Assembly (NCBI GenBank): GCA_030068145.1
Contig: JAPJBO010000364.1
Coordinates: 1-64,000, forward strand
Reading direction: 5' to 3'
From: Diplonema papillatum
Taxonomy: Eukaryota > Euglenozoa > Diplonemea > Diplonemida > Diplonemidae
Length of the DNA: 64,000 bases
This document shows, piece by piece, positions 1 to 32,532 of the stretch. How positions within the stretch are numbered: position 1 is the stretch's first letter; the number at the start of each line of letters is the position of its first letter. Under the pieces are notes generated by a model that saw only the letters and a list, made by a program, of their open reading frames with translations, was not told where the DNA came from and did no database searches. The translations under genes and the position numbers were made by a program.

Positions 1-862
<862 letters not shown>

Positions 863-3800
863 TCATTTTTGGTCCCTCACGCACAGGACATGAGCTGACC
901 TCGTCAGCACTGGCCAATTGACCTTGCGCACTCTCTGTGGACGATCCGTGCTGACGATGTGGGCCGAGCCCCCGACAAACCTGGCCAACACCCACTGGGC
1001 CCTCGGGTTCTTCGGCCCTACTATGGCGGCGGTGCCTTCCTGGTACTCGAGCTCCGCTCCATCCGTGAGCTCGAGACCTAGCAAATCTCGCGCTGCTTTT
1101 CGGAGGGTGTTGACCGTGAACCACCCCTCCTCCTGCGGTTTTTCTGCCAGGGCTTGGATGTCGTGCTCCCGGGCTGTTGTGTAGAGCCACGTCTGGATTC
1201 GGAACAAGTCGATAAAGTTCGCCCTGTCTCTCTGCCACTCATCCGCCAGCCAGTTCAGGGCTGCCCATCCGCTCTCCCCTCCTCTGTTGCCCTCTGCTGG
1301 CTGCGTGTGGAGACTCCTTGGGAACCGGGTACCAACTGACTCTGGGACTTTGACTCTGCGCCACTCATCCGGGTGTCTATGGGGGTCTTTGGCGAGTTTT
1401 GCGACTGCGTGGGCGGTGAGGGCTTCCTCTTCTTCCAGAGCCTTTGCACGGCGGAAGGCCAAGCCTTCTTCTCTGTCTATGTCCATCTCCTCGGTCGTGC
1501 TGGGGGGAGCTACTTCTTCATCCTCTGTAAGGTCGATGACTTCCCACGTGCCCTCCGGTCCTCTTGCTCTCTTCGGTACCCCCCGGATTCGACTTGGGAG
1601 TGTGCCTTCTCCTTCAGCAGTGTCTCCCCGGTCCGAGCTCCTTTTCCTCCGCCTGTTGAAAACTGCTCCTCCTTCTGCGTCTATGTCGGGCACTCCCTCA
1701 GCTGGGGTCAACCCCCTTGCTGCCGTACTCTGAGGCTCTGAGGTGTCCAGCCCTGCCGCAGCTTCTTCAGGCTCGGTGTCCGGAACAGGGGCCCGGGGGG
1801 TATCAGGGGGGGACTCATGAAAGGCCTGCCCGTCCGCCTTCTCCTCCGATCCAGTTCCCCTCGACTTTGTGGCTATCCGTGGACCTGTCGACAGGGAGTT
1901 GGGCTCGCCCGACTCCGAGCTCAGTGAATCCCTTTCGATGTCCCCGGCTGCCTCGGCTTCGTGCCTCCTGCCTTGTGAGGCTCTGTCTGCCACCCTTCTC
2001 CTCGTTGCCTCCACGAACCTCGCGAGGAGTTCCTCCGGGCTTGGCCCCTTGACTCCGGGCCTGTTGCCAGCCGGCTCGGGCCCATCCACCGTCGACGGCG
2101 TGCCATCTCTCCTCTCTGTGTCCTTCGAGGTCTCGGGCTGCTCAGGGGCCGGCTGGTATACTAAAAGAAAGGTGTCCGTCCCCTCGAACCTCGGCACGGA
2201 CGAAAAACTGGCATGCTCACCATCAAGAATCGTCCACCTCTGCTCCCTCTCGGCGTGTTCGTTGTACGCGTGCACCCTGTAATGGCCCGCGTTGTTCCCC
2301 CCTGTGTGCGATACCACCGCTGTGAGTTCCAGCTGTCTGCCCAGGCCTGGCAAAGTTATTGTGGTATCTGTGGGCACTGCTCTCCTGTCTGTGCAGTCGA
2401 AAGGGCGCGCCCTTTGTAGCTGAATGATCACCGCTGTGCCGGCCTGGCTAAAGGAGGGCTTAGTCTGGGTCTGCCCCCTGACCCCGCAGTTCTCGCATCT
2501 GTAGTCCGCCCCTGCCGAGGACCACGCGAAAGCTTCGTCGAGACACCTCTGCACCGAGCCAGCTCCTACGGGGAGGATGGTTATGTCCAGGTCCTCTTGA
2601 GCCATGTGGCCATACTGGCACTTCCCACACTTAACTTCGACCGAGTACCTGTGACGCAGGCCTGCAATTCGGTCCGCCCAATTGGAGCTGCAGGCTCGGT
2701 GAGCCGTGTTCTCTTCTAGGATCGCTGAGGCCACTGTCCGCAGGACCTCTCCCACGTCGTGTTGTCGACCGTCACCGAATGGGCCTCTGATTTTCGCCAG
2801 TACAGACCGCAGCACCGCCTCTGAACGGCCGCCTGTCACCCACTTGTGGACCTCTGCAGTTAGTTCTCCCTTCTCGTGTGTGCCGCACTGCTGGAAGATG
2901 GCTATCTGCTGCGCCATGTTGGTGACCGCAAAAAGGTTCAACGCCGCCTGCAGGTAGCACGAGTTCGTGGTCTTGATGCCTGATCGGCCCTTTGCACCCG
3001 GTTTTGCGATCGTCTTATCTCCGAGCCGGTGAGGGTCTCCAACTTCCTCCGAGCTTGGCAGCTCAGAGTCGAGAGCGGCCAGGGATTCTTTCCTCACGCG
3101 GTTCCGCCCCGTTCCTGGGAGGTCGGCAATGTTGCTCGCTTTGTGTGAAGCCAAGCCGGCACCCGGGGTTCTGGGATTTTCGCTTGCTGTCTCGCCTGTC
3201 GTGCTTTGCGGGGACTTCCTGCTCGTCCGTGGATTGTCTGCTTCTGCCTCCTCGGTTGCAGCCGCTTCCCCCTTTGCCATCCCCTTCTCAGCTGCCATGT
3301 GTGGTTGATTTGCGGCGCTGGGGAGGGAGTGTGCTGGGGGGGTCACGGTTTCATGTTCTTGGACGGGGACGCATTCTGGCCGTTCCACCTCCAACAGGGT
3401 TCGCATGATGTCCACAGTTTCCTGGGAGCTGCTGGGGGTGCCTCCTTTTTCCGACCCTCCGGTCCCTGGGTGCCGTATGCCTTCGTCCGGTTCTGGCGAC
3501 CATGACTGGCCTTGGGGGTCGTGTGGCAGTCCTGTCGAATCGCGCGTGTATGAACGAATCTGCCTCTCTTCTGTTGTGCCCTCTGTTTTCGATCGGCCCG
3601 TTCTCCCTCCTCCTGCGACTGCTCCCGTCTTTTGCTGTGGTGCTTCGCCTCCCACTTGCGCTTCTGTCCCTGTCTTTTCCGCCTCGGGTGTCGCTCCCAT
3701 CAACATTCCCCTTCCAGCTGCCATGTGTGGTTGTTTAGCGGCGCTTGGAGGATGGGGTGTTGGGGAGACCTTGGGCACGGGCTTCAAGCTGGAGGAGCAG

Positions 3801-6800
3801 TCACGCCCTTCCCCTTCGAACGGGGCTTGCATCAGTGTCACTGTGTCCTGGGAGCTGGAGGAATAGCCTGTGCCTCTGGCTTCCAGGTGTCGCGCAACTC
3901 TGTCGGCAGCCGTATCCGATGGCCGATTGAATTGGTGGAGTGTTGCTGCACCGTCTGGCTCCCCGGCTTTAAGAGAGACATGCGGACCCGAGCCTTCCGC
4001 TGTTCGGGCGCCTGTTGGTGGGAGGGTCGCTGATCGGGTGTCCCCTGCTGCCATGTGTGGTGTGTTGTTGGCGCCGGTGAGTCCGTCAGAGACTGGAGTG
4101 TGTCGCTCAGTGTCTGGAGTGTGTGACAGAGAAGGCCGGGGGGGCGGGATGTCGTCCGGTGTCTCGAAGACCTCTGCTTGCATAGCTTTCAGTACCTCTT
4201 CTGCCGACCATCCCTCGACTGCTTTCCCGACCCCTACCCGGGTTTGCAGATGTGCGTCCTCTAGCCTTGGCCGGCCCACTTTGCCCCGCCCCTCGTTTTC
4301 GGACCGTGCCTCTGGGCTGGGAGTCCGCCCTGTCTGCCCGAGCGGCCGGGGGCTTCGATCGCCTCCAGGCGTGCCTGGGACGTTGTCTGCTGTCGATTTC
4401 TGCATCGACGGCTGCTCTCCCGCTGCTGTGTCACTCCCGGGCCCCTGACGGGCAGCCGGTGGCATTTGCTCTCCCGCCGCATCCTTTGGTGGTATCGCTG
4501 TTGCCTGGGCGGCTGTCGGAGGAGCGGCCTTAGCTGGAGCTGTCGGGGAGGCGGGGGGGGCGACGGGGCCCCCGGCCGCTCTCGCCGGCGACACCGCTTG
4601 CAAGTACTGCGTCACCGACATTGTGCGCTTTTCCTCCTGAATGAAGCTCCGGGGCGGATCTGATGGAGTTGGGAGGGCGTCGCTCCCCCGCTGTGCTGTG
4701 CTTTCCCGGCTTTTTGCCCACCTCTCCGCTCTTCTTCTCCGCATCGGCATGCTTTTGATCTGCTGAAGCTTCTTGAGGTATCTTCCGGGGTCACCCCTTC
4801 GCTGGACTGCCTGTCCTTCCCCGGAAGACTCGCCCTCGGTCTCATCTGTTGCCATCGGAACGGGTGGGGGGTCGGCATGCCCCTGGCTGCTTGGCCTCCC
4901 TTGGAGGGTGTGGCCTCTCGGCGCTGTGGGGCCTTCCTTCCCGACCGTGGTGGCTTCCTGACCTTGTGTCCCCTGGTGCGTGTCTCCCACAGGAGGCTCG
5001 GCCCTGGGTGGTGAAGCCAGCGGAGCCTTCGGTCTCTCTGTGGCACCTGCGTGGCCCCCCTCCGTTTCTGCAGGGGCTGTTAATGCCTCGGCCGGGGCGC
5101 CTTGGCCCTGCCCCCTCATGTGAGAGTCATCCGTTGTTGGGGCCCCTGTACCGAGGGAGGGGGCGAGCTCAGCCTGAGCAGTGCTGTCGGCGAGTCCTTC
5201 TCCCGGTGATGCGGGGGCTGCTGTCGATCTTGGCGAGGCGTCCTGACTCTGCCCCCTCATGTGTGTGTCCCCCGACAGCGAGAGTTCGGACATGAGGGGA
5301 GGATCGGGCGGCATCTCTCTCTCTGTGCGGTTGGGGTGCACCCATTCCGGTGCGTCGCGTACTGCTGAGGCGTCTGCCGGGGCGTCATGGACCTTTGTAC
5401 CATGTGTGGCCTTCGACCCTTCTTCATCCATGCCTGTCGATCGCGGTGTTGGTGTCGGTGATGCTGGATCTGGCGGCGGCCAAATCGGGGGCAGTGTCCG
5501 TCCTGTCCCCTGACCAGACCTACTCGTCTTTCTCTCCGCGTCTTCCCTGGCTTTCTGCTGAACCGCCTTGCCCAGGGCCTCACACTCCTCTTGCCAAATC
5601 TCCACATCCAGCGAAACGTACTCCACTGGCTTTTCCCTGATGTTTCCGGGTTCCACTCCGATGGAGTTCCTGTCTGTTATTGTCCCTCTGCGGATCGCTG
5701 CCCTGGCTGCCCCTTTGACCACCTGTATGGAGATCCTTTCTGCGTAGTCGCGGAAAACCTCTGCTTTGTTTCTCCTGGCCCGGTCAGCTGCTTCGGCAGC
5801 CACTCTCCAGAGGAAGCTCCGGGCCTCTGCTCCGAAGCCGCCCATGGACTCGAGGGCAAACGCCGTGAAGCGCCGGTTGTTCTTCTGCAGCTCCTCCGCG
5901 TACTTTGTGTACTTGGTCGCCTCCCCCTTCCTGGCCGCGTACCCTTGTGAGATTGCCGCTTCCTGGCAGATGGATGCGCTTTGGGGATTGACGATTGTGA
6001 CGTCGATGGATCTGGGGCGCCGCTCGTTCACTCCTCGCGGGAGGGAAACGTCCCCCGGGATTATCCCTGGCTTTGTGCCCACTGTGCCCTTCTCCTCCTT
6101 CTTCGGCTCCAGGGCCGCGTCCAAGCACGCCATGTACAGCTCGTCCCTCACCGCATGATGCTTTGCTGTCCAGTCCCCACCGTGGCGGCAGCTCAACGCA
6201 TGGTGGCCGAGCCTGTCAAGGCCGTCTTTTTTGCACACCTCGCATGTCTGGCCCGCCTCAAATACCGCCGAGCCCAGCCACATCTTGACTGCTACTTCGA
6301 ACTCTTGAGGCTCCATGTCCTTTCCTGTGTAGGGGACGGCCGTCAGCCACGAGCCGGCATGCGGGAGGGTAATCGTCAGGAGGCGTGCTTTCTCCCTTGG
6401 GTTGTCATCCACGTCCTTCCTGAGTTCCCTCAGCTGCCTCTCCTCAATAGCGGCTGACAGAAGGCGCTGGACGAGGACTCCTCTCGGGCCCTCCGGGCTA
6501 ACATCGTCGCTGCCGACTGCCTCGTTAAATGACTTGGCCGCTTTCCTCCAAGCCCTCGCCTCGACCCGATATCGGTGGTCCAACTTCTTCGCCAGCTCCT
6601 CCCAAGCTGAGATCGACGCCAGCGTCGCTGCCGCATGGTGTTCTGCGGTGCTCCTGAGCCCCAACCCGCCATACCGAATTGCCAGCTTGGCCTGCGACCA
6701 AGCCTGAGCTGACAATCTGCTGCTGCTTATCGCTTGCATTGCGTCGTGGACCATGTCGTCGAACCGGCGGAGTTCTTGTCTGACCTTCCTTCCCGGGACG

Positions 6801-9800
6801 GCCCGCATGTAGTACACCATCTTTCCGTATGAGGTGCAGTATCGCAGCAGCAGGTATGCCGCTTGCTTGTCATCCATCAGCTTGAGCATCCTGAAGGTCT
6901 CCCGGAGCTTGTCGACCTTTGCCTTCAAGAACTCTGCGCAGAATGCGTCGTTTCCTATTGGTGCTCCCAGGAAGCTAAAGTTCGGGCCCACCAAGACTAC
7001 TGTGTCCTTCGGGAACCCCCATGCCTCGGGCCTGCGGTCTAGGGATGCATCCAGGAGGATAAGCTCGCACTTTCCGCGGTTTACCTCGAGGCCAATCTTG
7101 GCGCACTCCCTCTCGAACAACTCGAGTGCTCGCATCACTTCGTCCTTGTTCCCCGCCAGGAACCCGTCGTCCAGGTAAAACAGACTCATGTCTAACCCTG
7201 TTTCCGCTCGGACCTTTCTGACAATGGGGGCAATCGCTAGGGAGAAGAGTAGAGGACCCATGGGGTCGCCTTGTTGAGCCCCCTCTTCCGATGACATGAT
7301 TTTTCCCCTCATGTACAAGTTGGACTTCCCTGCGTAGCACCACTTCACCCACGGCAGGAGTTCGGGGAACGCTGACTTCGTCTCCCTCAGGATGGCCGAT
7401 CTGTGGACGGAATTAAACGCGTTTTTGAGGTCCACTTTGATCATGACTTTGTTTGACTTGCCTTCGTTGCGGAACGCGTAGCTTCTGACAACCTGGACGG
7501 CTGCCTCCAGGCCTCCGGGCACCGCTACGCCCACTTGGTTGTCTTTGACCAGGTATTCCTCGGCCTCGGACTTAACGGCGGCGCACGCGCTTTTTGATGC
7601 GAGCCTCCTCCACACTTCCCCTACCGCGATCGGTCTGACGTCTTTTTCCTTCTTCCTTAGCGCGATGAGGGTAGCCCCCGCCATGTCGCCTCTCGCCAGC
7701 TCAGGGCCCCTCCCCGACAGGAGCAGGTTAACGAACTCCGTCGTGGCTGCTATGGCTCCCTCGACGTCGGGAGCTTCCACCGCGTCCCGTATGTACTGGG
7801 CCTTGAAGGCCGACGGGCCGGCTCCCGAGCCTCGAGGGAATCCTCTGATGCACCGAAGAACGTTTTCTGGTGTCACCTCCAGGGCCTCTTCGGTCTCCCC
7901 GTAGTCCACCTGGTCGTATGCGGCCGCCGCTTTTGGGTGTTTGGACTCGAGGGCCTTCCAGGTTTCCTCGTTGTCCTCCGCCAGTCCCTTTGCCGTAAGG
8001 GCCTTGTTGCCCTGGGAGTATCTTCCCAACTTGGCCAGCACCGTTGCCCTGGCCAGCCTTTCGTCTTCTACCTCTTGCAACTCTCTTTCCTTCTTCTTGT
8101 GGGGCGAGTTGCGCACCGATTCCACCGCTTCGCTCCAGAGAAACCCGTATTCCCCTTCGTTCCATGCCTGCAGCCTGCTCTTCACATCATTCGCGTGCCT
8201 TTTGTGATTCCTCTTGCCTCCGGCTCCTGGCGCCTTCCGCAAGCACGCCTTAGGCAGCATGTACAACAGCCTGTACGAGCTCTCGTCGTTCTTGTCGACT
8301 GCTCGACGGAGTGTTCGCACATAAGTCTCTGCCCAAAGTCGTTGCACTGGGCGCGGGACTTTGTCGAACATCCTGACCCTTAGCTGGGCAATCTCCTTCC
8401 ACTGGGGGAGGCTCCCCTTGGGGTCGAGCAGCAGAGGCCTCTCCGGATCCTCTCCTGGCCGTTCCAGCTTCTTCCTGCAATCGGCGTGCGTCTCCTGACT
8501 GTACAGGACCACGTCCCCACACACTGAGCAGCCTCTCAGGCCGAGCTGTCGCAGATACGACTCCGGCACTGGGATGGTTTTCCTGTGGCTATTGATGTGG
8601 CCCTTCAAAGCCTCAAACGAGGAGAAAGGTTGACCGGGGATCCTGCCTTCGGGCTTTTGCGATCGAGAGCAGCCCCTCATGGGGCAGAAAAACTTAGATC
8701 CCTCTCTAAGACCCATGATGGAGTAGGATGCCTTCGTCAGTTCAGGGCAAACCCACCACCTAATGTCGTCGGCCCCCGTGGTGCCTTCGATGGTCGGGGC
8801 TGTAGCCGGGCTGCCCCGTAGCCTGCCCACCACCGCCTTCGTGGCCATCTTCCACAGTTTCTCCTTCCCGTCCGAGTCGATCCGCACTTTCTCATAGTGG
8901 CCGTTCCCGAAGGCCACCACCAAGACGCGCCGGGGGTCGTTGGTCTCCTTCCCAATCCGTATGACCGGGATGTCTCCTCCACGTATCACCAGGATGCAAA
9001 CCGCCCACATCTCCGAGATGGCCTGCAACGTGAGCATGTCCATCCACTTCTTGCTGGACTCTACCTCCAGGGCGAAGGCCCTAGCCTCTTCCGGTGAAGC
9101 GAGAATTCGGGTGTACGTGTCGAAGTCTTGGCGTATGTGTGCTCCTACCTCCTTCCTCAGGCCGTTGGCGTCCTCCACTTTGAGGCGAGCGTAGTTTATC
9201 GCCCGGTACCCGCAGTCCCCGCCTGCCCCACTTGTATCCAGGATCTTCGCCCCCACCTGCTTGGCGATCCTGCCCCTCTGCGATCTCCGGTCCGCCTCCA
9301 GTATGTCGTCGGGTTGGTGATGGGGGTCGTCAGCCACTGACAGGAGCTTACCCGAGCACGACGCGTGCCGGGTTTCGCCTCTCGACGCGTCCACTACTAG
9401 GCCGCAGTGCTGGCATCTCCTGTAGCGATTCTCCTCGATCGCCTTCAGCACGGCCTTCTTGGCCTTTGCCTCCCCCCAAACGGCCGTGAGGTGCTCTGAC
9501 AGATGGCCTGTCATGAACGTTCGCTTCCCCTTTTCCGTGCAGCCGTTCACTGGGCACGGCTTGGGGCCCTGGTCCTTGGGAGGCTCCGCTCCCCCGGCCA
9601 ATTCGTGTGGTCCCAGGAGGACCGGGGCTCCGCATGTGATCGGTACGGTCGGAGTCTTCGTCCTGAGAGCGCCTCTCTCCCGTCTCCGTCTCCTCTGTCT
9701 CTGGTCGGCTGTGTCTGCGGGCGTGGCCTCTCGCCTCCGGAGCCTGAGCAGTGCTGACGTCGTGGCGACCAGTGATGCCCACTGGAGCCTTTGCGCCATG

Positions 9801-12800
9801 TGCGGCCACGTCTGCAGGCCCATTTCTGCTACCTCTACTGCCTGCCGTCGGCTGGGCAGCGGACCCCCGAAACACGTCGACGAGCTGGGCCGGAGTAGGG
9901 ACTGCGTAGTGGTATCCATCGTGAAATGTGGCGCTTCCCGTTCTTGGACTTGCGCGCGACTCCCAGTCCTTTCCACCAGTGTTGCCAGCGCTACGCCTGC
10001 GACTGCTATTGCTACCCACCTCAGCAGGGACGGGCCGGCCTTCCAGCTGTTTCCCCTGTTAAAGCCGCGCGGGCGGGAGCTTTGAAATCGAGGGGGTGCC
10101 CGTGCGTCTGGGTGCCTCGGGGTCGTTCTGTCCACGGGCTGATGGGGCTCACGTCGCTTTGGTTTCAGGGCGGACACGGCGAGTGCGGAGAATGCTAGAG
10201 CTGTCGCCCCTGCTTGCAGGTGGGGGATGCCTAGGGTCGTTGTTCTCGCCCTACTGTGTCGGACAGCCAGAAACCAAAATGATCCGCTCAGCAAAAAAGC
10301 TCCTCCCACCACTGCAGCAAGCTCCGCCCGGCTTCCAGAAAGCCATTTCCCAGGCCCCGGGATCGTGGGTGTTTGGGGCTGAGGGTCTCGGGGGGGGCGC
10401 TGTTGGGGGGAGCGGGCATCGCCCTGTCTGGGCAGGTGGGACGGCCAAAGGGGGTGATCGGGAGAGGTGCTACTCGGGCCGGCTTTCTTACCTCGAACCC
10501 ACTGGAGGAACCTGGCTCCGGCCGTGACCGCTGGCGCGGCCGCCGATGCCCAGGGAAGTGACCCCGGTTTCTTCTCTACTGATCTGACCGACCGTGCCGC
10601 GCGCTGCGCCTCGCCGGTGCCCCACGCCGTCCCCCCCCGCCCCACTGGCGGTCCGCGGAACTTTCCCCCCCCTGAAACTGTACTGGGAGGGGCGGGATGC
10701 ACTGGGGACGGGGACTTGCGGGGGGTTGCCTTTTGCGTGGGGGGCGTGTGCCCGGGCTCTCTGTGCCCCGGGGTCGCTCTTTCAACCGGCTGACCGGGTT
10801 CGCGTCGTTTTGGTTTCAGGGCGGCCAGGGCCAACGCTGAGAGCGCTAGAGCTGTCGCCCCCGTTTGCACGTAGGGGACGCCTAGGGCTGTTGTCCCTGC
10901 CCAACCATGCCGGACCGCCAGAAACCAAAGCGACCCGCCCAGCACCGAAGCACCACCCACCACTGCGGCGAGCTCCACGAGCATCGCGGCCGCCACGGCC
11001 ATCCACGCTAGGAGCCCCCCGACTCCCCTCCCCAACCAGGATTGGGGGGGGGCGGGGGGTGCAGGGCGAGGCCATAAAAACCGCGCCGAGACCGGGGTCT
11101 CTTCGTCCTCCTCGGGCGGGGCGGGCCTGCGGAGGCCTTCCCGTCTCTTCTTGTGGGGACGGGTCTTTCTCCTTCCACCCTCCCTCCTCCTTTTGTTTCT
11201 CGCCCACCACCTCCCCTTCGTGGTGGGCGGGTCCCCCTCGTCCTCCTTTCGGGGGGCCGGGCTGGGGCTGCGGGGCTGCTGCCCTTCCTCCTCCCTCCTT
11301 TTGGCCCGGGCCTCCCGTCGGCGCCCCGCTTTTACCCTCCTTTCTTCTTTGCTAGGGGTGGGCCTCAGTTTCTTCGGGCGGGGCTTGGGCGGGTAGGTGG
11401 GGAGCGGGCTCCGGCGTCTGTCCCCTCCTTTTGTGCCCCCCGTCTTTGGCAGTCGTGCCGGCCTGCCCCGGGCGAGGGGGGCATCCCCTGGGACCCACTC
11501 CGGCCCCCACTCCTGTGGTGGGGGAGGGGGGGGGACTCTTCCGGGGGGCGCTGGCGGGGGACTGGGCCCCACTAGCCTTACCCCCCTCCGGTTGGAATCT
11601 CGGAGGGGAATCCAGCCTTGGGCGGGGCTCTCGAAGACGTGTGTGTACACGTCCTCCCACCTCCACGGGCGGGCTTCCCGGGGCTGGGGCGCAAGGGATG
11701 CTGGGGGTGCCCTCGGGGGGGCGTCCCAGTCCCGTTCTTCTCTCTGGGGGGGGCGGCCCTGATCCCGCTCTGCGTCCGTCGCACCTCCCTGGTCGTGCTC
11801 CTCCTCTTCGTTTCTCCCCGGCTTGCCTGGCAGGAGACCTTGAGCCCGGTCGGTGGGGCGTTTCGTCCGAGGAGCTCCGACCGAGGGGTGCGACGGGGCA
11901 TCGGCCGAGGGCTGGGGGGGATCGTGGGAGAGTGATCGGGCCCCCCCGCGCACCGACCTGTAGGTCAGCGAGACCCGGGGCTGTGTGACGTCGGCGGGAC
12001 GAATCCCGTGCGTCCACAGGCACCTGGCCTCGCCTTCCATGTGGCACAGGGTGCCGACTGGCAGGGGGGTCCTTACCTTCCGTCCCCCCTTCTCCCACTC
12101 CATGACCGTGTCACTTAAGAGCGACACGGTCGCGACCGTCGGACCCAGCGCCCGCTGGTCCGTGTGGGGGGCGATTCCCACCCCTCTCCCGTACCGGTTG
12201 ACCAGCAACTGGTCCGGTACCCACCCCAGGCGGACTCGAATGAGATCCGCCATTTCTTTAAGGGGCCCTTCGGGGATCCCCTCTTCCAGCTTGAGCGGGA
12301 GTCCGCCCTGTCGGAAGGCGAACCCCCATTGCTGGGTCTCCCTGCCCCCCAGCCTCCTCCACGGGGCTCTCGGCCCGAGCTCGGGTACCCGGCTGAGCCT
12401 CTCCAGAAGGCCCTGAGGGACCGACTGGAAGCTGAGCCCGGGTATGGGTCCCTCGGGCATGGTGGGAGGGGAAAGGACTAAAGAAAAAACAAAAACAAAA
12501 AAAGAAAACACCGGCCCTCGGGGTATGATCCCGGACGACTGCTGGCCAGGTGCGGGCGGGGGGGAAAAAGAGAAGCAGCTGCCGTTGTTGCTGCGGCTGC
12601 TGGTGCCGCTGCTGCGGGTGCTGGGGCTGCTGCCGTTGAGGCAGTTACTGCTTCTGCTGTTGTGGCTGCGGCTGCTGGGGCTGGGGCTGCCGCTGTAGGG
12701 GCCTTTGCCGTTGCTGCTGTTGTGGCTGCTGGATCTGGGGCTGCTGTTGCTGCGGCAGGTGCTGCTGCTGGTGCTCGTGTTGCCGCCGCTGTCGGGGCCG

Positions 12801-13066
12801 TTGTTGCCGCTGGAGCTGGGGCTGTCGCTGCTGCTGCCCGTGAGGCTGCTGCCGCTGTCGTTGGTGCTGCTGTTGCTGTTGTGGCTGCGGCCGCTGCTGC
12901 CGAGGCAGCTGCAGCCCCGGGCGAGCCGGCGGCGCCTCCCTCCAACCCTCCGACCGGCGGATCCTTTCACACCCCTCCGCCGGGTGCGGGCCTTCACGCG
13001 CGCCGGAACGGTGGCGCCAGCCGGTGTCACGCGGCTCTTCCCCGGCTCAGGGGCAGGCGGTGACAC
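863..13066 (-). CDS. 4067-residue retrotransposon polyprotein: AlkB, hydrophobic repeats, zinc fingers, OTU, RT, RLE, SIM and USP
   Basis: One unbroken frame. Domains in order: Ser/Asn-rich leader (1-202, encoded by triplet repeats; Met203 at 12460 is an equally good start); AlkB-like 2OG-Fe(II) dioxygenase about 275-375 (H301-x-D303, H353, R364/R370 pattern); Pro/Arg-rich linker; hydrophobic segments about 690-760 and 905-990 that are copies of each other; C2H2-type finger about 1170-1190 and CxxC...HxxxC about 1215-1235; OTU-like protease about 1272-1402 (D1284-C1285, H1390); a second finger pair about 1460-1530; RT about 1790-2015 (D1879 motif A, GAQQGDP motif B, YLDD at 1964-1967); CCHC about 2275-2293; restriction-like endonuclease about 2325-2420; long disordered region; USP domain about 3360-3640 (C3370, H3595, D3615, two CxxC pairs); SIM VIDLT at 3843-3847 followed by acids; unknown C-terminal domain about 3900-4067. 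RT, CCHC and RLE are standard for R2-type LINEs. The AlkB and USP additions are unusual. No internal protease site is recognised, so processing is unknown. Confidence 0.85.
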   Translation of the reverse strand: MSPPAPEPGKSRVTPAGATVPARVKARTRRRGVKGSAGRRVGGRRRRLARGCSCLGSSGRSHNSNSSTNDSGSSLTGSSSDSPSSSGNNGPDSGGNTSTSSSTCRSNSSPRSSSHNSSNGKGPYSGSPSPSSRSHNSRSSNCLNGSSPSTRSSGTSSRSNNGSCFSFSPPPAPGQQSSGIIPRGPVFSFFVFVFSLVLSPPTMPEGPIPGLSFQSVPQGLLERLSRVPELGPRAPWRRLGGRETQQWGFAFRQGGLPLKLEEGIPEGPLKEMADLIRVRLGWVPDQLLVNRYGRGVGIAPHTDQRALGPTVATVSLLSDTVMEWEKGGRKVRTPLPVGTLCHMEGEARCLWTHGIRPADVTQPRVSLTYRSVRGGARSLSHDPPQPSADAPSHPSVGAPRTKRPTDRAQGLLPGKPGRNEEEEHDQGGATDAERDQGRPPQREERDWDAPPRAPPASLAPQPREARPWRWEDVYTHVFESPAQGWIPLRDSNRRGVRLVGPSPPPAPPGRVPPPPPPQEWGPEWVPGDAPLARGRPARLPKTGGTKGGDRRRSPLPTYPPKPRPKKLRPTPSKEERRVKAGRRREARAKRREEEGQQPRSPSPAPRKEDEGDPPTTKGRWWARNKRRREGGRRKTRPHKKRREGLRRPAPPEEDEETPVSARFLWPRPAPPAPPQSWLGRGVGGLLAWMAVAAAMLVELAAVVGGASVLGGSLWFLAVRHGWAGTTALGVPYVQTGATALALSALALAALKPKRREPGQPVERATPGHREPGHTPPTQKATPRKSPSPVHPAPPSTVSGGGKFRGPPVGRGGTAWGTGEAQRAARSVRSVEKKPGSLPWASAAAPAVTAGARFLQWVRGKKAGPSSTSPDHPLWPSHLPRQGDARSPQQRPPRDPQPQTPTIPGPGKWLSGSRAELAAVVGGAFLLSGSFWFLAVRHSRARTTTLGIPHLQAGATALAFSALAVSALKPKRREPHQPVDRTTPRHPDARAPPRFQSSRPRGFNRGNSWKAGPSLLRWVAIAVAGVALATLVERTGSRAQVQEREAPHFTMDTTTQSLLRPSSSTCFGGPLPSRRQAVEVAEMGLQTWPHMAQRLQWASLVATTSALLRLRRREATPADTADQRQRRRRRERGALRTKTPTVPITCGAPVLLGPHELAGGAEPPKDQGPKPCPVNGCTEKGKRTFMTGHLSEHLTAVWGEAKAKKAVLKAIEENRYRRCQHCGLVVDASRGETRHASCSGKLLSVADDPHHQPDDILEADRRSQRGRIAKQVGAKILDTSGAGGDCGYRAINYARLKVEDANGLRKEVGAHIRQDFDTYTRILASPEEARAFALEVESSKKWMDMLTLQAISEMWAVCILVIRGGDIPVIRIGKETNDPRRVLVVAFGNGHYEKVRIDSDGKEKLWKMATKAVVGRLRGSPATAPTIEGTTGADDIRWWVCPELTKASYSIMGLREGSKFFCPMRGCSRSQKPEGRIPGQPFSSFEALKGHINSHRKTIPVPESYLRQLGLRGCSVCGDVVLYSQETHADCRKKLERPGEDPERPLLLDPKGSLPQWKEIAQLRVRMFDKVPRPVQRLWAETYVRTLRRAVDKNDESSYRLLYMLPKACLRKAPGAGGKRNHKRHANDVKSRLQAWNEGEYGFLWSEAVESVRNSPHKKKERELQEVEDERLARATVLAKLGRYSQGNKALTAKGLAEDNEETWKALESKHPKAAAAYDQVDYGETEEALEVTPENVLRCIRGFPRGSGAGPSAFKAQYIRDAVEAPDVEGAIAATTEFVNLLLSGRGPELARGDMAGATLIALRKKEKDVRPIAVGEVWRRLASKSACAAVKSEAEEYLVKDNQVGVAVPGGLEAAVQVVRSYAFRNEGKSNKVMIKVDLKNAFNSVHRSAILRETKSAFPELLPWVKWCYAGKSNLYMRGKIMSSEEGAQQGDPMGPLLFSLAIAPIVRKVRAETGLDMSLFYLDDGFLAGNKDEVMRALELFERECAKIGLEVNRGKCELILLDASLDRRPEAWGFPKDTVVLVGPNFSFLGAPIGNDAFCAEFLKAKVDKLRETFRMLKLMDDKQAAYLLLRYCTSYGKMVYYMRAVPGRKVRQELRRFDDMVHDAMQAISSSRLSAQAWSQAKLAIRYGGLGLRSTAEHHAAATLASISAWEELAKKLDHRYRVEARAWRKAAKSFNEAVGSDDVSPEGPRGVLVQRLLSAAIEERQLRELRKDVDDNPREKARLLTITLPHAGSWLTAVPYTGKDMEPQEFEVAVKMWLGSAVFEAGQTCEVCKKDGLDRLGHHALSCRHGGDWTAKHHAVRDELYMACLDAALEPKKEEKGTVGTKPGIIPGDVSLPRGVNERRPRSIDVTIVNPQSASICQEAAISQGYAARKGEATKYTKYAEELQKNNRRFTAFALESMGGFGAEARSFLWRVAAEAADRARRNKAEVFRDYAERISIQVVKGAARAAIRRGTITDRNSIGVEPGNIREKPVEYVSLDVEIWQEECEALGKAVQQKAREDAERKTSRSGQGTGRTLPPIWPPPDPASPTPTPRSTGMDEEGSKATHGTKVHDAPADASAVRDAPEWVHPNRTEREMPPDPPLMSELSLSGDTHMRGQSQDASPRSTAAPASPGEGLADSTAQAELAPSLGTGAPTTDDSHMRGQGQGAPAEALTAPAETEGGHAGATERPKAPLASPPRAEPPVGDTHQGTQGQEATTVGKEGPTAPRGHTLQGRPSSQGHADPPPVPMATDETEGESSGEGQAVQRRGDPGRYLKKLQQIKSMPMRRRRAERWAKSRESTAQRGSDALPTPSDPPRSFIQEEKRTMSVTQYLQAVSPARAAGGPVAPPASPTAPAKAAPPTAAQATAIPPKDAAGEQMPPAARQGPGSDTAAGEQPSMQKSTADNVPGTPGGDRSPRPLGQTGRTPSPEARSENEGRGKVGRPRLEDAHLQTRVGVGKAVEGWSAEEVLKAMQAEVFETPDDIPPPRPSLSHTPDTERHTPVSDGLTGANNTPHMAAGDTRSATLPPTGARTAEGSGPHVSLKAGEPDGAATLHQFNRPSDTAADRVARHLEARGTGYSSSSQDTVTLMQAPFEGEGRDCSSSLKPVPKVSPTPHPPSAAKQPHMAAGRGMLMGATPEAEKTGTEAQVGGEAPQQKTGAVAGGGRTGRSKTEGTTEERQIRSYTRDSTGLPHDPQGQSWSPEPDEGIRHPGTGGSEKGGTPSSSQETVDIMRTLLEVERPECVPVQEHETVTPPAHSLPSAANQPHMAAEKGMAKGEAAATEEAEADNPRTSRKSPQSTTGETASENPRTPGAGLASHKASNIADLPGTGRNRVRKESLAALDSELPSSEEVGDPHRLGDKTIAKPGAKGRSGIKTTNSCYLQAALNLFAVTNMAQQIAIFQQCGTHEKGELTAEVHKWVTGGRSEAVLRSVLAKIRGPFGDGRQHDVGEVLRTVASAILEENTAHRACSSNWADRIAGLRHRYSVEVKCGKCQYGHMAQEDLDITILPVGAGSVQRCLDEAFAWSSAGADYRCENCGVRGQTQTKPSFSQAGTAVIIQLQRARPFDCTDRRAVPTDTTITLPGLGRQLELTAVVSHTGGNNAGHYRVHAYNEHAEREQRWTILDGEHASFSSVPRFEGTDTFLLVYQPAPEQPETSKDTERRDGTPSTVDGPEPAGNRPGVKGPSPEELLARFVEATRRRVADRASQGRRHEAEAAGDIERDSLSSESGEPNSLSTGPRIATKSRGTGSEEKADGQAFHESPPDTPRAPVPDTEPEEAAAGLDTSEPQSTAARGLTPAEGVPDIDAEGGAVFNRRRKRSSDRGDTAEGEGTLPSRIRGVPKRARGPEGTWEVIDLTEDEEVAPPSTTEEMDIDREEGLAFRRAKALEEEEALTAHAVAKLAKDPHRHPDEWRRVKVPESVGTRFPRSLHTQPAEGNRGGESGWAALNWLADEWQRDRANFIDLFRIQTWLYTTAREHDIQALAEKPQEEGWFTVNTLRKAARDLLGLELTDGAELEYQEGTAAIVGPKNPRAQWVLARFVGGSAHIVSTDRPQRVRKVNWPVLTRSAHVLCVRDQK
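10138..10990 (-). repeat. Internal duplication encoding paired hydrophobic segments
   Basis: About 200 bp at 10138-10340 is repeated with divergence at 10787-10990. On the minus strand both copies encode ELAAVVGGA, a hydrophobic run, FLAVRH, another Ala/Leu-rich hydrophobic run and SALKPKRREP. Each copy looks like a two-helix hairpin closed by basic residues. The duplication lies inside the polyprotein between the AlkB and OTU domains. Confidence 0.7.
12580..12930 (-). repeat. GCT/GTT triplet-rich tract in the retrotransposon leader
   Basis: This is an imperfect trinucleotide tract (plus-strand GCTGCTG/GTTGCTG). It is open in several frames: Ser/Asn/Gly-rich in the polyprotein frame, Ala/Thr-rich in another minus frame and Leu-rich on the plus strand. 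This ambiguity suggests it may be 5' UTR rather than protein, with Met203 as the real start. Confidence 0.6.
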
Positions 13067-13200
13067 GGGTGCGCGGTCGGGCGCCCGGCGGCAGAAGAAC
13101 GTCGCACACCCCTCCGCCGGGTGTGGGCCTCACGCGTGCCTGAACGGGGGCACTAGCCGGTGTCAAACGGCTCTTCCCCGGCTCAGGGGCAGGTGGTGGG
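12968..13200. repeat. 137-bp tandem repeat, 1.7 copies, at the retrotransposon 5' end
   Basis: A block beginning CACCCCTCCGCCGGGTG and ending CTTCCCCGGCTCAGGGGCAG occurs at about 12969-13066 and again at 13106-13199. Short GC-rich tandem monomers upstream of the frame are typical of LINE 5' UTR promoter monomers, so a promoter role is inferred from position only. Confidence 0.65.
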
Positions 13201-13615
13201 CTTTCGCAAACCCGGGTTTGCGGGTTTGCGGGTTCGAAAATATGTGGTCGGATGCTCGTTTAGGCTGAAATAATGGCTGCAGAATGCAAAAACAAGACAG
13301 AGTCACCTCCCACAAGGCAATTCCAATAAAGTACAGAAACTGTAGCTTTTAAATCGTTGGTTGGCCTGTTGTGGACATCTAAGTGGGAGTGCGCCTTTAA
13401 AGCCCCGAAGCTGCTGAACTTCGGTCCCATCCGCCCGCCCGCCGCCCTCATGGACCTCTCGCACCCGAGCAGTGGGCAAAAGAAGGCCGCTCCCTGCCGA
13501 ATCCCGTGCAGGGAGTAGCACCCCTGCTTCGGGGCGCGGGGGGGTGCTTGTGTGTATCTCGCAGAAACTGTAGCTTTTAAATCGTTGGTGGCTCCCCACA
13601 GTAAGATTTTCCTCG
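13201..13615. other. Non-coding spacer with a 27-bp direct repeat
   Basis: No gene is seen. CGGGTTTGCGGGTTTGCGGG occurs at 13208-13234. A 27-bp sequence starting CAGAAACTGTAGC is present at 13334-13360 and 13562-13588. The segment between has small hairpins but no convincing frame. Confidence 0.6.
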
Positions 13616-13655: not shown

Positions 13656-14461
13656 TTTTTTTTTTTTTTTTTTGGTAACCCGGAAAAAATGCTTTACGCA
13701 CGACCCCCGTGGACTAAGCGGAGAGTGTGGGACTACGTTCGTGGAGCTATGGTGGCCGAACGCTACCCACTAAAACAACCGGGGGCCCTTAGAGACTGCT
13801 GCTGAGGAGGCCATCCCCCGTGACTCCCCCGGAGGGGGGCTTGTCAGGCCGAGTCACGACAGCATCAGGGAGAGTGAGGTCAACCATCTCTCCCTGCTCC
13901 GCTCCTGCTCCTGGGTTTGTTTGTTTGTTTTTGCTTCCGCTGACTGGTGATGATGCTGCGCTCCGAGCTACCCCTGTCAAGGGCTGACTTGCTCCCTGGC
14001 TCTTTTGCGCGCTTTGTTCCTGTGACTTGGGGTTGCCTGACCTCCCGCTCGCTCCTGGTTTCCCTCCCCCGGCAAGGGGGGGTCCTTGTTGGCATCTTGT
14101 GCCGCTGACTCCTTGGCCGTTCCGTCCGTCCTGGCCCTCTTTCACTTTCTTGGGGTCTACCACCCTCTGCACCGCCGCACTCCTTTTCCTGGCTGGCGCT
14201 GTCGCCGCCCTCTGCTGTCCCTCCCGCCCTGCCCTGGCTGACTGGCTGCCAGGATCCGCTGCTTGACGCCCTCGGGTGGGCTCAGGACTCACAGTCACCT
14301 TCACAGGTCGGGGGCCCCTCAAGCTCACAGTGGGGGTGGCGGCTCCTCCTGCACCCCCAGTCCCCCTCAAACCGGACGCGTTGCCCAGACGCGACCGGCA
14401 TGAGTTGCTCGCTTGAGTGGCCCCTTCCCCGCTCGGGATCGTGATCACCCCTCGCTTCCCC
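13656..14461 (-). mobile_element. 5'-truncated retroelement fragment with 18-nt poly(A)
   Basis: T18 (13656-13673) precedes GGTAACC and a 3' UTR resembling the one at 29568-29700 (shared TGACGCACGACC-like, GAGTGTGGGACT and TACCCACTAAAAC blocks). Upstream on the minus strand lies a low-complexity coding fragment to 14461, where the next element's poly(A) starts. Similar 3' ends at two loci support a retroposed family unrelated to the AlkB/OTU/USP element's 3' end. Confidence 0.65.
13789..14461 (-). pseudogene. C-terminal fragment of a Pro/Gly/Arg-rich retroelement protein
   Basis: About 224 codons are open on the minus strand, ending at 13789. The fragment is rich in Gly, Ser, Arg, Pro and Gln and has no folded domain I recognise. 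Near its end it contains VDLTLPD, which resembles a SUMO-interacting motif and parallels VIDLTEDEE in the large polyprotein. The apparent start at 14586 lies in the neighbouring inserted element, so the N-terminus is missing. It is probably the tail of an ORF1-type or linker protein. Function is unknown. Confidence 0.45.
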
Positions 14462-14776
14462 TTTTTTTTTATACGCCGCTCCACCCGGCACTTGGGACCC
14501 CGTAACGCGCTCATGGGGGTTCCATTTTCATGGGCGCGGAAACCAAACGGGAAAAGAGGAAAATTCCACCATGAATACACAAGCATGTCCGCCTTACTCT
14601 ATTTTACTGGGGGCTGTTTTGGTTTTGGTGGCGTACCACCAGCCCTTTTCGTCCTGTGGTGGCGAGCCGCCCACATGACCTTGCATTTTTGTGTTCTCTT
14701 TTTTTTTTTTCCCTTGCGTATTGGCCTGTTTGTGTATTCGCGTTTTGAAGGTGGTGGGGGGGGAAATGGTAAACAT
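14462..14776 (-). mobile_element. 305-bp 5'-truncated copy of the AlkB/OTU/USP retrotransposon 3' end
   Basis: T9 (14462-14470) is followed by 305 bp nearly identical to 141-445 (for example, it differs at the CACGAATAC/CATGAATAC site). It is a dead-on-arrival copy ending at 14776. No target-site duplication is evident. The close identity implies recent mobilisation of the family. Confidence 0.85.
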
Positions 14777-25040: not shown

Positions 25041-28000
25041 TTATCGTATCTTCGAGCTAGACTTGATCTCGTGCATTAGCCAAGTGGCCCATTCTGTTGC
25101 TTTTCCGCTGGGCTCCTGATAGCGGACTCGCGCGCAAACAGACAGTATGACTGCTGTGTTGCGGGCTGCAAATTCATCCAATACTTGTCTGTACGTTACC
25201 TCACTCTGTCCAAAGATGCGCGTGAGGTTGGCTTCGGGTCCGTAGCATAGAATATGTCGTTCATCGCCAGCCGTCAGGACATGATCTGCACTTCCTCGGT
25301 GGTAGCAGCCTTCTACGGCGCACTCGTTGCGGGTTTTGAACGGCATGATGGCTCTACGGGTGAGTGCTTGGAGGAGATCCGTAGCTCCATGCAGGTTCCG
25401 CAGCGCCCGCAGGGCTTGTGCGCTGAGGCAGCGAGGTGGTACGTCGGTAGATAGTCGATTACGGACCGCGGTGTCGCGACTGTCGGTACGGTTTCTCCTC
25501 GCGAAGAGTCCGTTTTCTTCGAGTTGCACCAGGTCACCATTGTCGTCTTCGGTATCGTCTTCTTGCCACCGTTGGCACAGCCTGGCAACGTTGGCCTTGC
25601 GGTAGCACCATTCGACATTGAATGTGCTGCTTTTTTGGTAAGCGGCGTTTGCTGCGACGTCTGCCGCGTTGATGTCGGCATTGTCGCTGTGTCCCCTGGC
25701 CCACTGCACATCTGGGAGAGTGCACAGCACCATGGCGACCGGGTCCCCTTTGCGGGGGTTCCTTAACCGGGCGATGGCGCTCATGCTGTCGCTTCGCGGC
25801 TTGGCCATCGCGTGGGGCTTGACTTCCTTCAGTGCAGTCGCTAGAACCATCATCGCACACAATTCTGCTTGTGTGCTCGAGCTGATCCTCCCATGGATCT
25901 TCGCACCGTAGGCCCTGCCGTTGACGCAAATTCCGACAGCGCCTCTGCCTTCTTTTTCCAGGTAGCTCCCGTCGGTTGCTACTCTGACGACATCGCCGCT
26001 TGCTTCAGCTTCTCTGAGCGCCCTCTCGGTCCATGTTATGACGTAGGGCTTTCGCACCCTCCGCGGTGGGCGCAGCTCGAATCCGGTTGCTGGGATTCTG
26101 CCTTCCGTCAGGTCGGGGTGGGCGGCCAGGTAAGCCCTTACCTTTTGCTGTTCAGAGAAGTCCTTTATCGGTGTCATTCCGTATCCAAAGGAGCAGGCCG
26201 GATATCCTGAGATTCCATTGCTTCCATGGTGTCTTGGGATGAGTTTTGTGTAAGCGGCTTGCAACTTGGGGTGCGTCGGGTCGAAGCACTTCGAGACTGC
26301 CTGTATGGCGAGCGTTGGCAGCGCATAGCTTCTGTAGAGCTCACTCTTGCCTCGAGTGGAGCAGTAGTAAGACTGCGAGATCATTGCACAGACTCTGCTG
26401 AAGCGTTCGACTCTTTTCCGATTACGTGCACAGGATGCGTGGTCGTTGTCTCCGTGTAGGCATCCCCCGAGAAGTCTAGTGGACAGCCGCGTCGTCACCG
26501 TGCCAAGACCGGGAATCGGTATCTTGCTGACCCTCGAAGCGACCACCACTAGCTTTCTTCGGGCCAACTTAAAGCCCCTGCTTGTCATCCAGTCGTTGAG
26601 CACCTGTACTTGAACCGGGACCGATTTGACCGCTGCGAGAGATGTAAGGTCGTCAACGTAGGCTTTGCACTGTGTGAGGTCTGGCGGGTCCGCTGTGTAA
26701 TACAGGTAGAGTATCACGCTCAGTGGGGAACCCTGCAGCAGTCCTCTCCTCAGCGCCATAGGCGGGGTAAAACCTTCGTTAGTGGTCAGCGTATACCACT
26801 GCGACTCTAACACTGCCTCGATCGATCTCGCCCACTCGTCTCCGAAGTCGTTGCGTATTTTTTCCAGTAGCTTGTCGTGTGGTACTGTGTCGTAGGCTGC
26901 TTCGATGTCAGCGATGACAACTGCTGGGTCCTCTTCGTCGCCGCCGTCCATCCATTCTTGCGCCCGCTGGAGGATCTCGAGGGTGGCATGCTGCCGCTGG
27001 CATCCGTATTGGAAGTCTTTGGCTTTAATCCGCTCAATGCAGAGGTCTCGGATCTTGAGGTAGACGCAGACGTGGAGGAATTTTAGCATCAGTGGCATGA
27101 TGGCAATTGGTCGGTAGGCGTTCGGGGAGGTTTTTGGGATGCCGGGTTTCGAGATGAGAAAAATCCATGACAGCGCATGTTCGTGCGGGATTCCGGCTTC
27201 CAGCCACTCGTTAAAAGTGTCAGCTACAGTCGTAATTTCTTTTGGGCGGAGTGTGGATAAGAACGTTGCCGACAGGTCGGTCGTCCTAGCCTTCTTCTTC
27301 ACGAATGGAATCGCTGTCTCTACGTCTTCCGGCGACAGTTTGTGGTGTCTCTCGGTCTCCTCTTTTTTTTCCATCGGTCTAGGGGCTCGCGTTGCTACCG
27401 CGTCGTATCTGCTCTGGAACCGGTCAACTACGGCGGCGACATTCAGGACTCTCGGGGGCTCGTACGGTCGTCGTTGTTGGAGGGCGTGGTTGCTGGTTTC
27501 GCCCCTGGTGGCGTAGGCGATTCGTTTCCGAATGTCGCTGACCTGGCGGTTCATCTCCTTCTTGTCGGCTTCGTCGGTGGCATTGCGTCGCTTCAACATC
27601 CTCGTATTTAACGCTCGCTGGAGTCGCGCAATCTTCGTCGTGCGGTATCGGGGCGGCCGGTATGCGATTGGGCTTAGCATTGTTGCCATGAGGCCATCGA
27701 AGTCGTCTGCGGTTGGTCGGTCGTTTTTGGGGTATCTCATGGGCGGGATGATCTTTACGATCGTGTGGTCGTATTCAAGGCTGATCGCTGCATGGTCACT
27801 GCCTCCGGTGAACCGGGCTGATTCGAAGGTGCAGCTTGTGTTGCGGGGAACAAAGACTCTGTCCAGCGATGTATCTGCGTTGCTCCTGTGGTATGTAGTG
27901 CGTCCTCGCACCAGTTCGTCCCCTGCGTTGCGTCTGACGATTCCCTCGACTGTTGGTGTGGTGTTGCCGTTGAAGTCGCCGGTAACTACGTATTCTCCCA

Positions 28001-30926: not shown

Positions 30927-31849
30927 CACTATTTCAGATGTTCAGGGATCGGCTCCTGAATGCAACTCCTAGCCCAGTCTCTGTAAAAAACGGCTGCACA
31001 GGTTGACCGTGTGGGTGCCAAAGTGGCCCAAATACGATCCAGGGAGAGGCGACTACCATAGAAAATGGGGTACCCTGAGACGTTTACCCAAAAAAAAAAA
31101 GAAATTTTCGATACATTCAAGAAAGTGCCCCTGTGCGGGATAGAAGCGAAATTTCATTCGTTTTCCCGGCAAATAAGTGCCCGGGGGGCACTTATTTGCC
31201 CCCCCCCCAGTAACATGTTTGCGGGTAAAAAGGTTGAGATACCGTGCACGAGAAGCACGAAAAGGGGTCGCTGTTCACAGCTATTGGCCGGGTGCCAGCT
31301 TTTTAATCATTTTGACAGCTGCAATGAACTCAGAGATCACAACCAGCCAAAAAACATCTAGTTACGGCAATTTCTTCTGACCCGGAAATAGAGATTGGGG
31401 AGGGGGTTTCTGCCCATAAGAGTCGCTTACTCCAAGGTCTCGTGGGCAGTCATGGCAGAACACGTGCTGCTTCACAATTTCCCGCACACATTATGGGAGA
31501 CCCTCAACATTCACAAGCATTATGTTTGCTCGCTGGTCATTTTCGGGGCTTCTGCTTGCCCATTCCCCGCCGGTTTATCCTGTTGCAAAGTGAATTTTGT
31601 TGGATTGCGGTGTGAAACGTGGTGTTTCAATGGAGCGGAAGACTTATCAGAGGTATCAGTGTGCCTCTCAAAACTAGCAGGTGCGCGCGCGTGAACAGTT
31701 GTTGGCAGGGTTGTTGCCCAACCAGCGAGCGGTCTTCCTTGACTTCTCAGCAAAATTCACACACAAAAAGTATGAATGTTGCCAAGAAGCTAGCTGGACA
31801 CCAAATGGTATTCAATTCCACGAATTCGTGCCTGCCTGGGATCGAGGTA
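30927..31849. other. Non-coding stretch
   Basis: It contains the palindrome at 31168-31200 and otherwise nothing I can name. It may include diverged 28S sequence at its right edge. Confidence 0.4.
31168..31200. repeat. Perfect 15-bp inverted repeat, 3-bp spacer
   Basis: GGCAAATAAGTGCCC and its exact reverse complement are separated by GGG. It is followed by a C run, mirroring the G run and word order at 24161-24185. Confidence 0.9.
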
Positions 31850-31980
31850 GCCCAGAGACGCAAACTGTGCACATTAGAGGCGTTCAGCCATAATCCATCC
31901 AGTGGTAGCATCACGGCACTGTCCGATCGAACAACCGTAGATACCAGGGACTAGAAATGGGAGTTCCTCTCGTACTACCC
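31850..31980 (-). rRNA. Fragment of nuclear 28S rRNA (sarcin-ricin loop to 3' region), pseudogene
   Basis: On the minus strand TAGTACGAGAGGAAC (31963-31977) is the sarcin-ricin loop. It is followed 54 nt later by GATGCTACC and then GGATTATGGCTGAACGCCTC (near 31875-31895), in the same order and nearly the same spacing as the 3' domain of eukaryotic 28S rRNA. Upstream of the loop the sequence does not resemble 28S, so this is a truncated copy, perhaps retroposed or a footprint of an rDNA-targeting element. Confidence 0.75.
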
Positions 31981-32532
31981 CATATAGCTGTCGGAATGCG
32001 CCGGCCCGATGGGAGTGGGAACGGCCTCTTTTTTTGGTCCGAAGATCTTTTAACTTTGAGAGACCGTTCCTCGTGTAGCTCTTCCAACGCAGCTACTCAC
32101 ATTTCTTCCATCTTTTTGATTTTGACCCTGTGAACAGTGGTCGTGGCAGCTATTGTTAGTGTTAACATGTTTTCTATGTTAACAATAGTTGTGGGGGGGT
32201 TTAAGGGAATGGGGTTAGGGATATAAGGGAAAGTAATTTCTAACCTAGGGATGTAAGGGAAACTATTTGGGTATGCATAGGGGGTGGTAAGAGAGAAGTA
32301 TTCAGCCATTTGTATACACATGCACCATGTGAAGAAAACAAACCATGGATGGAACCAATCTGAATCCAGTGTGTTTTACCCCTTTTCCCCATTGTTCCCC
32401 TCTCTTGGCGAGGATGTTTTGCTCTTCTTATTGGGGATGGCAAAGAGGGAATATGGGATGGTTGCGGCTTCTGGCGTGGCGCGGGTGATAAAACTTCTGC
32501 TGGTAAGAATAACACATACAAAGCCCCGGCAA
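31981..32532. other. Non-coding stretch with a small inverted repeat
   Basis: CTATTGTTA...GTTAACAT faces ATGTTAACAATAG around 32150-32190. GGGATGTAAGGGAAA-like repeats follow. No gene is seen; the part next to 32533 is the 3' flank of the GTPase gene. Confidence 0.4.

Follow-up and report, generated by a model that had tools for sequence, protein, structure and literature searches.

A Diplonema papillatum LINE with AlkB, OTU-like and USP-type domains alongside reverse transcriptase and restriction-like endonuclease in one reading frame

The element, its frame and its surroundings

The window, a stretch of 64,000 nucleotides of Diplonema papillatum DNA (contig C364:1-64000 in the 271-Mb genome of 2,910 contigs that we searched), begins with a non-LTR retrotransposon read on the minus strand. 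The element is 13,069 bp long (139-13207) and is followed by a poly(A) tail at 1-138 (minus strand), seen as a T run on the plus strand; the run reaches the contig edge, so the tail is at least 138 nt long. From 13066 to 863 the minus strand is free of stop codons for 4,067 codons (4,088 counted stop to stop), confirming the uninterrupted frame described in the initial annotation and placing it on the minus strand. The longest open stretch among 100 mononucleotide shuffles of the element was 423 codons, as compared with 4,088 in the real sequence. The frame had also been said to end in the poly(A), which is not the case: the stop is at 863, and a 3' untranslated region of 724 nt (862-139, minus strand), also present in copies of the element (filter of >97% identity and >250 bases), comes between the two.

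The GTG at 13066 is no more than the first potential start that follows a stop codon, and the first ATG is residue 203, at 12460. This ATG stands in the context ccaccATG, just downstream of an extended T-rich tract (12478-12510, minus strand). The tract ends in TTTAG and looks like a trans-splice acceptor, and we list it, as read from the sequence, as a candidate acceptor for the spliced leader. The same context, T-rich tract and TTTAG, precedes the ATG of a diverged sister family, L039. Essentially all D. papillatum mRNAs bear a spliced leader and trans-splicing is general in the species (excerpt of PMC10161547). The protein start is likely M203, which makes 863-12460 (minus strand) the most likely coding sequence, with a product of ~3,865 amino acids whose domains are separated by long low-complexity linkers. 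The 5' region of the element (12461-13207, minus strand) starts on the sense strand with GCGAAAGCCC at window base 13207, and copies on contigs C6 and C1171 have the identical first base.

Several other features lie in the window. At 14462-14776 (minus strand) lies the 3' end of a further, truncated copy of this element (99.3% identity over 305 bases). We considered 13656-14462 as a possible 5' region of the element and rejected it: the ~807-bp stretch is an independent, SINE-like repeat that has ends of its own, and its low-coordinate side carries a run of T that reads as poly(A) on the minus strand. The 2.65-kb stretch that includes it gave 4,937 first-look candidates in the genome, 40 of which were scored. 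Two further regions are LINE-like: 37759-41880 (plus strand), where APE precedes RT and RNase H across adjoining frames, and 25041-28844 (minus strand), with RT and a weak RNase H. A fragment of eukaryotic 28S rRNA lies at 31821-32000 (minus strand); the D. papillatum genome has ~3,600 scattered 28S pieces (excerpt of PMC10161547). At 35836-36978 (minus strand) a WD40-repeat frame overlaps a 126-bp tandem repeat.

Domains of the frame and their relatives

The N-terminal domain is an AlkB-type 2OG-Fe(II) oxygenase (residues 280-370; 11957-12229, minus strand), matched by the Pfam family 2OG-FeII_Oxy_2 at an E-value of 5.3e-11 and with 43.5 bits against a cut-off of 31.2. HTD is read from 12166 and WTHGI from 12016, with RVSLTYR after these. 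The arrangement HxD...H...R comprises the defining residues of AlkB / 2OG-Fe(II) dioxygenases, and HxD, WTHGI and RVSLTYR are retained both in L039 and in a second family, L038. Compared with the PDB, the domain matches ALKBH8 (1.7e-9) and ALKBH6 (4.3e-9), with ALKBH2 and ALKBH3 at 0.0029 at best.

The AlkB of L038 is related to that of the element (75-77% amino acid and 83% nucleotide identity) and is located near the start of an APE-type LINE family. At the L038 locus (C17:427400-434000, 1072-6600, plus strand) a single frame holds AlkB, the peptide GDIEQNPGP, which we take to be 2A-like, an APE endonuclease and RT. We looked for a 2A peptide in the element as well and, unlike in L038, there is no NPGP in the frame. 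In the genome search with AlkB, for which the best 150 of 326 candidates were scored, 15 were 98-100% identical (window included) and 128 were 72-76% identical; many of the latter are in frames near 2,000 codons, and the one that was read is L038. As the scoring covered the best 150 of 326, ordinary AlkB genes of lower similarity would be missed. A related AlkB heading an APE-type LINE (AlkB-2A-APE-RT) points to module exchange. Used as a query against proteins (3,192 candidates, within length limits), the L038 AlkB found three, all from D. papillatum.

Downstream of AlkB, residues 679-1030 (9977-11032, minus strand) contain hydrophobic segments, by hydropathy, and an internal duplication (79% nucleotide identity). 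This stretch was considered as a conserved membrane module and rejected, since it is not kept in L039.

An OTU-like cysteine protease follows (residues 1258-1406; 8849-9295, minus strand), with GGDCGY from 9223 and NGHYEK from 8905, and zinc-finger-like C..C..H..H motifs flank it on both sides by eye. The Pfam OTU match (E 0.0012, 19.8 bits) is below the cut-off of 23.3; the fold is supported by a PDB profile and by fold matches, among them the PRO/DUB of Turnip yellow mosaic virus. In place of DGxC the element has GGDC and L039 has GGNC, with Asp changed to Gly in both, and the Cys and His are kept in all four rows of the OTU alignment (A5).

The reverse transcriptase core (residues 1804-2030; 6977-7657, minus strand) matches RVT_1 at 4.7e-21 and has YLDD from 7177. 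A profile of its relatives matches R2 (9nl3) with an E-value of 9.1e-47 and LINE-1 ORF2 with 2.5e-16. Behind it lies the restriction-like endonuclease (RLE; 5987-6244, minus strand), with CEVC..H..C from 6244, IIPGDV from 6064 and SIDVTI from 6010. Pfam has no RLE family listed, and the assignment rests on a 40-row profile that aligns to solved R2 proteins across the CCHC and D...D region; C636, H650, C654, H664, D700 and D716 are kept in at least 90% of the 40 rows. Exo_endo_phos, the APE endonuclease family, is not among the four Pfam families listed for the frame at E<=1.

The C-terminal domain is a USP-type deubiquitinase (residues 3366-3637; 2156-2971, minus strand) with NSCYLQ, CxxC pairs, NAGHY and LDG. 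It scores 31.8 bits with Pfam UCH (USP; E 1.5e-7; cut-off 23.9), and ubiquitin C-terminal hydrolases account for 23 of the 25 PDB matches of the USP profile at E<=1. The key residues (Cys box, CxxC finger pairs, His box and Asp) are kept in L039 and in the D. papillatum gene model P0002. Compared with USP7, the oxyanion-hole Asn position is non-canonical. The predicted structure, made from an alignment of two rows, has a pLDDT of 36.6, and a phmmer search of the PDB with the USP sequence by itself gave no hit at E 0.01. In hhalign, a comparison with a UCH protein of the same window (46834-48261) was not significant (probability 1.4%), although the Cys box and CxxC pairs align. That protein, a 475-residue frame on the minus strand with a UCH match of 1.8e-50 and an EF-hand match below cut-off, is probably the product of a host deubiquitinase gene.

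The five enzymatic signatures originally proposed are confirmed, with corrections: AlkB, RT and USP are over the Pfam cut-offs and RLE is supported by profile, and OTU, which is below cut-off and non-canonical, is supported by profile and fold. AlkB and USP, the two domains on which the proposal hinged, are both above the curated cut-offs.

The RT-RLE piece found 113 matching proteins, those after Diplonema coming from sponge, dinoflagellate, moth, tardigrade, octopus and many others. A Pfam scan of 39 RT relatives detected no AlkB, UCH or OTU at 0.05. We also built an OTU profile from the element, L039 and two OTU stretches of P0003 and ran it on 116 proteins, where it matched P0006 (1.8e-5) and P0012 (0.001; Ser replaces Cys); with Pfam OTU, the C-terminal domain of P0003 alone was seen, below cut-off, and P0006 gave none at 0.1. 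In an RT tree (FastTree; 85 of 118 matching rows kept by a length and coverage filter, with P0004 and P0005 of Diplonema dropped, few named members, and long branches for P0113, P0108 and P0091), P0003, P0006 and P0012 (ENA) are the nearest relatives outside Diplonema, forming a clade of six rows with three Diplonema rows at a local support of 100. All three proteins have an OTU-like domain after RLE, where this element has USP, suggesting that the lineage carries a post-RLE deubiquitinase-type domain more than once, and P0003 has a second OTU-like stretch before RT. Unlike the element, P0003 and P0006 have no UCH or AlkB match and P0012 has none in the Pfam scan; the sequences compared for P0006 and P0012 start at or inside the RT region.

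The window contains a second mobile element with a deubiquitinase-type domain. At 57637-61905 (minus strand) a frame of 1,422 codons (P0119) has an N-terminal GIY-YIG (5.4e-6) and a C-terminal OTU above cut-off (9.6e-9). Penelope-type RT-like motifs are seen by eye, and Pfam lists no RT. P0119 is multi-copy, with near-identical copies and relatives at 74-79%.

Copies of the element and a sister family

The window copy and those on C6 and C1171 share their 5' end, the C1171 copy being cut by the end of its contig. C6 and C1171 have one common 5' flank and the window has a different one, indicating at least two independent full-length insertions. Divergence from the window copy is just 0.015% for C6 and 0.024% for C1171, which argues that the family was active recently. 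Stop-free frames of 4088 codons are present in both C6 and the window, among the 15 AlkB matches at 98-100%.

Other copies are truncated from the 5' side at many points (for example at 12603, 12084 and 9159) and have A runs of 14-104 after the 3' end at 139, with runs at contig edges being lower bounds. The 14 readable 3' flanks comprise 12 different sequences. The fixed 3' end, poly(A) and variable 5' truncation are the hallmarks of target-primed reverse transcription. All 40 scored candidates (of 77) matched the 3' piece and 40 of 40 matched the internal 2-kb piece at 3000-5000, the window being included in each count. Copy counts drop from 3' to 5', as in LINE truncation, in searches that differ in kind. 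These data uphold the initial annotation of a mobile non-LTR (LINE) element with five regions in one frame.

Some copies are nested. The flank letters on C405 and L027 are the element's own sequence, and on C405, C703 and L026 the flanks match P0002, a member of a related family, at 99.5-100% identity; such nesting partly explains the contig breaks in the element. As copies are often at contig ends, a telomeric array was considered and rejected: the flanks beyond the poly(A) are varied, and none of the 20 loci counted has more than one TTAGGG/CCCTAA word. Together with contig ends inside a near-identical repeat, this points to assembly breakage rather than a telomere element. The copies on C805 (L012, L033) and C6 (L018, L031) have a common 3' flank and different 5' sides, which may reflect a duplicated site, a shared target or an assembly error. 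In the L022 copy the A run starts 94 bases ahead of the usual 3' end.

The frequency with which contigs end inside or near a copy could raise the concern that the joined frame is an artefact of assembly or gene fusion, an objection anticipated in the initial annotation. We regard this as extremely improbable. The 4088-codon frames of C6 and the window have no stops, and the copies have a common 5' end and unlike flanks. The domain order is also the same in the diverged family on C1429, so that both a further full-length copy and a sister family keep the architecture.

This sister family, L039, has AlkB, OTU-RT-RLE and USP in the same order in one open piece of 3,292 codons, with 61% amino acid identity to the element over OTU-RT-RLE (1144-2550) and 68% over USP. 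Between the two, pS and pN are 0.71 and 0.29 for OTU (z 7.7), 0.76 and 0.21 for RT (z 20.2), 0.71 and 0.21 for RLE (z 12.2) and 0.50 and 0.16 for USP (z 10.3); the z-test assumes independence among sites, and pS approaches saturation for OTU, RT and RLE. AlkB has 92% amino acid identity, a pS of 0.066 and a pN of 0.013 (z 3.3). A pS of ~0.07, as compared with 0.50-0.76 in the other four regions, suggests that the AlkB part was exchanged or homogenised recently. For this pair, the AlkB constraint depends on 14 changes over residues 203-376, and omega over residues 203-390 is 0.47 or 0.60; between the element and the APE LINE L038, the AlkB omega is 0.32. We did not use omega for residues 690-1140 because the alignment is poor. 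As judged from these sequence comparisons, AlkB, OTU, RT, RLE and USP are all under protein-level constraint.

Comparison with known elements and possible function

The element is an unusual LINE, not a new class of element. Like the R2-type / RLE LINEs (CRE, R2, R4, NeSL, HERO), it has RT and then the CCHC and D...D of RLE in one frame, N-terminal zinc-finger-like motifs, a 3' poly(A) and 5' truncation. Unlike these, it has AlkB, OTU and USP added and no single insertion site is seen, and its protein is ~3 times the size of the R2 proteins in the PDB (1,114-1,390 residues). With respect to CRE/SLACS, the name used by NCBI, 12 sequences among 14 3' flanks speak against a single spliced-leader-gene site. 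Dualen, a LINE with APE plus RLE, has its APE in the same frame, and this was not found here. NeSL/Utopia are also RLE-type LINEs, and at the N-terminus they too have a cysteine protease whose family acts on ubiquitin-like tags; theirs is of the Ulp1 family, not OTU, and the excerpt of PMC4640811 describes no C-terminal USP and no AlkB. An orchid Gypsy element likewise encodes an AlkB, which demethylates m6A RNA in vitro, but it is an LTR element with the AlkB, called ALKBH5-like, in a separate ORF (excerpt of PMC9289625). Ginger1, Helentron and other DNA transposons have OTU, Ulp1 or C19 domains too, with AlkB not mentioned in the excerpts (PMC2836005, PMC6431247). In the open-licence PMC literature we found no LINE joining AlkB, OTU and USP with RT and RLE, and the combination is not described in the excerpts of PMC10161547, PMC9289625, PMC4640811, PMC12278014, PMC2836005, PMC6431247 or PMC11943222; the OTU in the last of these is a gene listed on its own.

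Four D. papillatum gene models are pieces of the element or a related family. P0002 and P0004 are filed as SLACS 132 kDa protein, P0025 as a tRNA methyltransferase and P0118 as a hypothetical protein. They are cut up, spliced or fused, and none of the four has all five domains. P0004 matches the frame at 99.9% identity along 1,091 of its 1,123 residues, and D. papillatum gene models are the top matches in the protein searches.

The element is probably an autonomous, recently active RLE-type LINE whose accessory enzymes favour survival of the RNP or integration. The zinc fingers and RLE would nick the target and RT would copy the poly(A)-ended RNA by target-primed reverse transcription, as in R2, with the accessory enzymes joined to the one protein (AlkB at the N-terminus, OTU between zinc fingers, USP after RLE). 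AlkB might remove or alter methyl marks on the element RNA, given ALKBH8 and ALKBH6 as its closest solved relatives. OTU and USP could strip ubiquitin or a ubiquitin-like tag from the RNP, allowing it to survive, or act on host repair or chromatin proteins at the target, favouring integration. Protection of the RNP from ubiquitin-driven decay, with RNA repair or demethylation, would fit the domains and the purifying selection. Counting against this explanation are the OTU, with no Asp at DGxC and a Pfam score under the cut-off, the weak C-terminal OTUs of P0003, P0006 and P0012, the low pLDDT, phmmer null and non-significant hhalign result for USP, the small number of changes behind the AlkB constraint in the close pair, and the lack of AlkB and UCH matches at 0.05 among the 39 RT relatives scanned.

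Alternatively, OTU and/or USP may be processing proteases that cut the product into AlkB, RT-RLE and a C-terminal part, with deubiquitination being secondary. The size of the product and the long linkers would suit such cutting, as would the OTU-fold PRO/DUB of a tymovirus among the fold matches; the PRO of Turnip yellow mosaic virus cleaves the viral polyprotein. However, no ubiquitin-like domain is among the Pfam matches of the frame at E<=1, and USPs are not known to process polyproteins; we consider this reading unlikely, though a real rival. We are similarly doubtful that the accessory enzymes act at the insertion site, AlkB by repairing or demethylating target DNA or cDNA and the deubiquitinases on ubiquitinated histones or repair factors, again a real rival. 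DNA dealkylases occur among AlkB homologs, and the weaker PDB matches include ALKBH2 and ALKBH3, yet the much better matches to ALKBH8 and ALKBH6 are a weak pointer to RNA. Also in favour of action at the insertion site, the Ginger paper proposed DNA-repair factors as the targets of transposon Ulp1/OTU domains (excerpt of PMC2836005). That AlkB, OTU and USP are functionless passengers, picked up at random and maintained through copy number, is very unlikely. Copies within the family are so alike that selection within it says nothing, but L039 keeps all three within its frame, pS clearly exceeds pN in OTU and USP, the AlkB omega against the APE LINE is low, and the key Cys, His and HxD residues are retained.

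The domain content suggests that the element may bring its own tools to resist or exploit the RNA-modification and ubiquitin systems of its host. A broader and more tentative possibility, to which we give somewhat less than even weight, is that AlkB and deubiquitinase domains can be swapped among diplonemid retroelements as counter-defence cassettes, and that in the RLE lineage USP has taken the place of a C-terminal OTU. This reading derives from the related AlkBs of two LINE types, RLE and APE, and from the presence of OTU in both the RLE LINE and the GIY-YIG retroelement of the same window. Two deubiquitinase-type domains, one unlike that of the nearest relatives at the same place, together with related AlkBs on two LINE classes, would be expected if the ubiquitin system and RNA or DNA methylation restrain retroelements in this host. 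If true, host defence against retroelements through RNA methylation and through ubiquitin would become testable in a transformable flagellate.

AlkB of the retroelement type is also found in the D. papillatum proteins P0025, P0117 and P0118, where it is cut from or joined to such elements, and P0117 and P0118 fuse it to other sequence. These retroelement AlkBs bear on the published count of a dozen AlkB genes.
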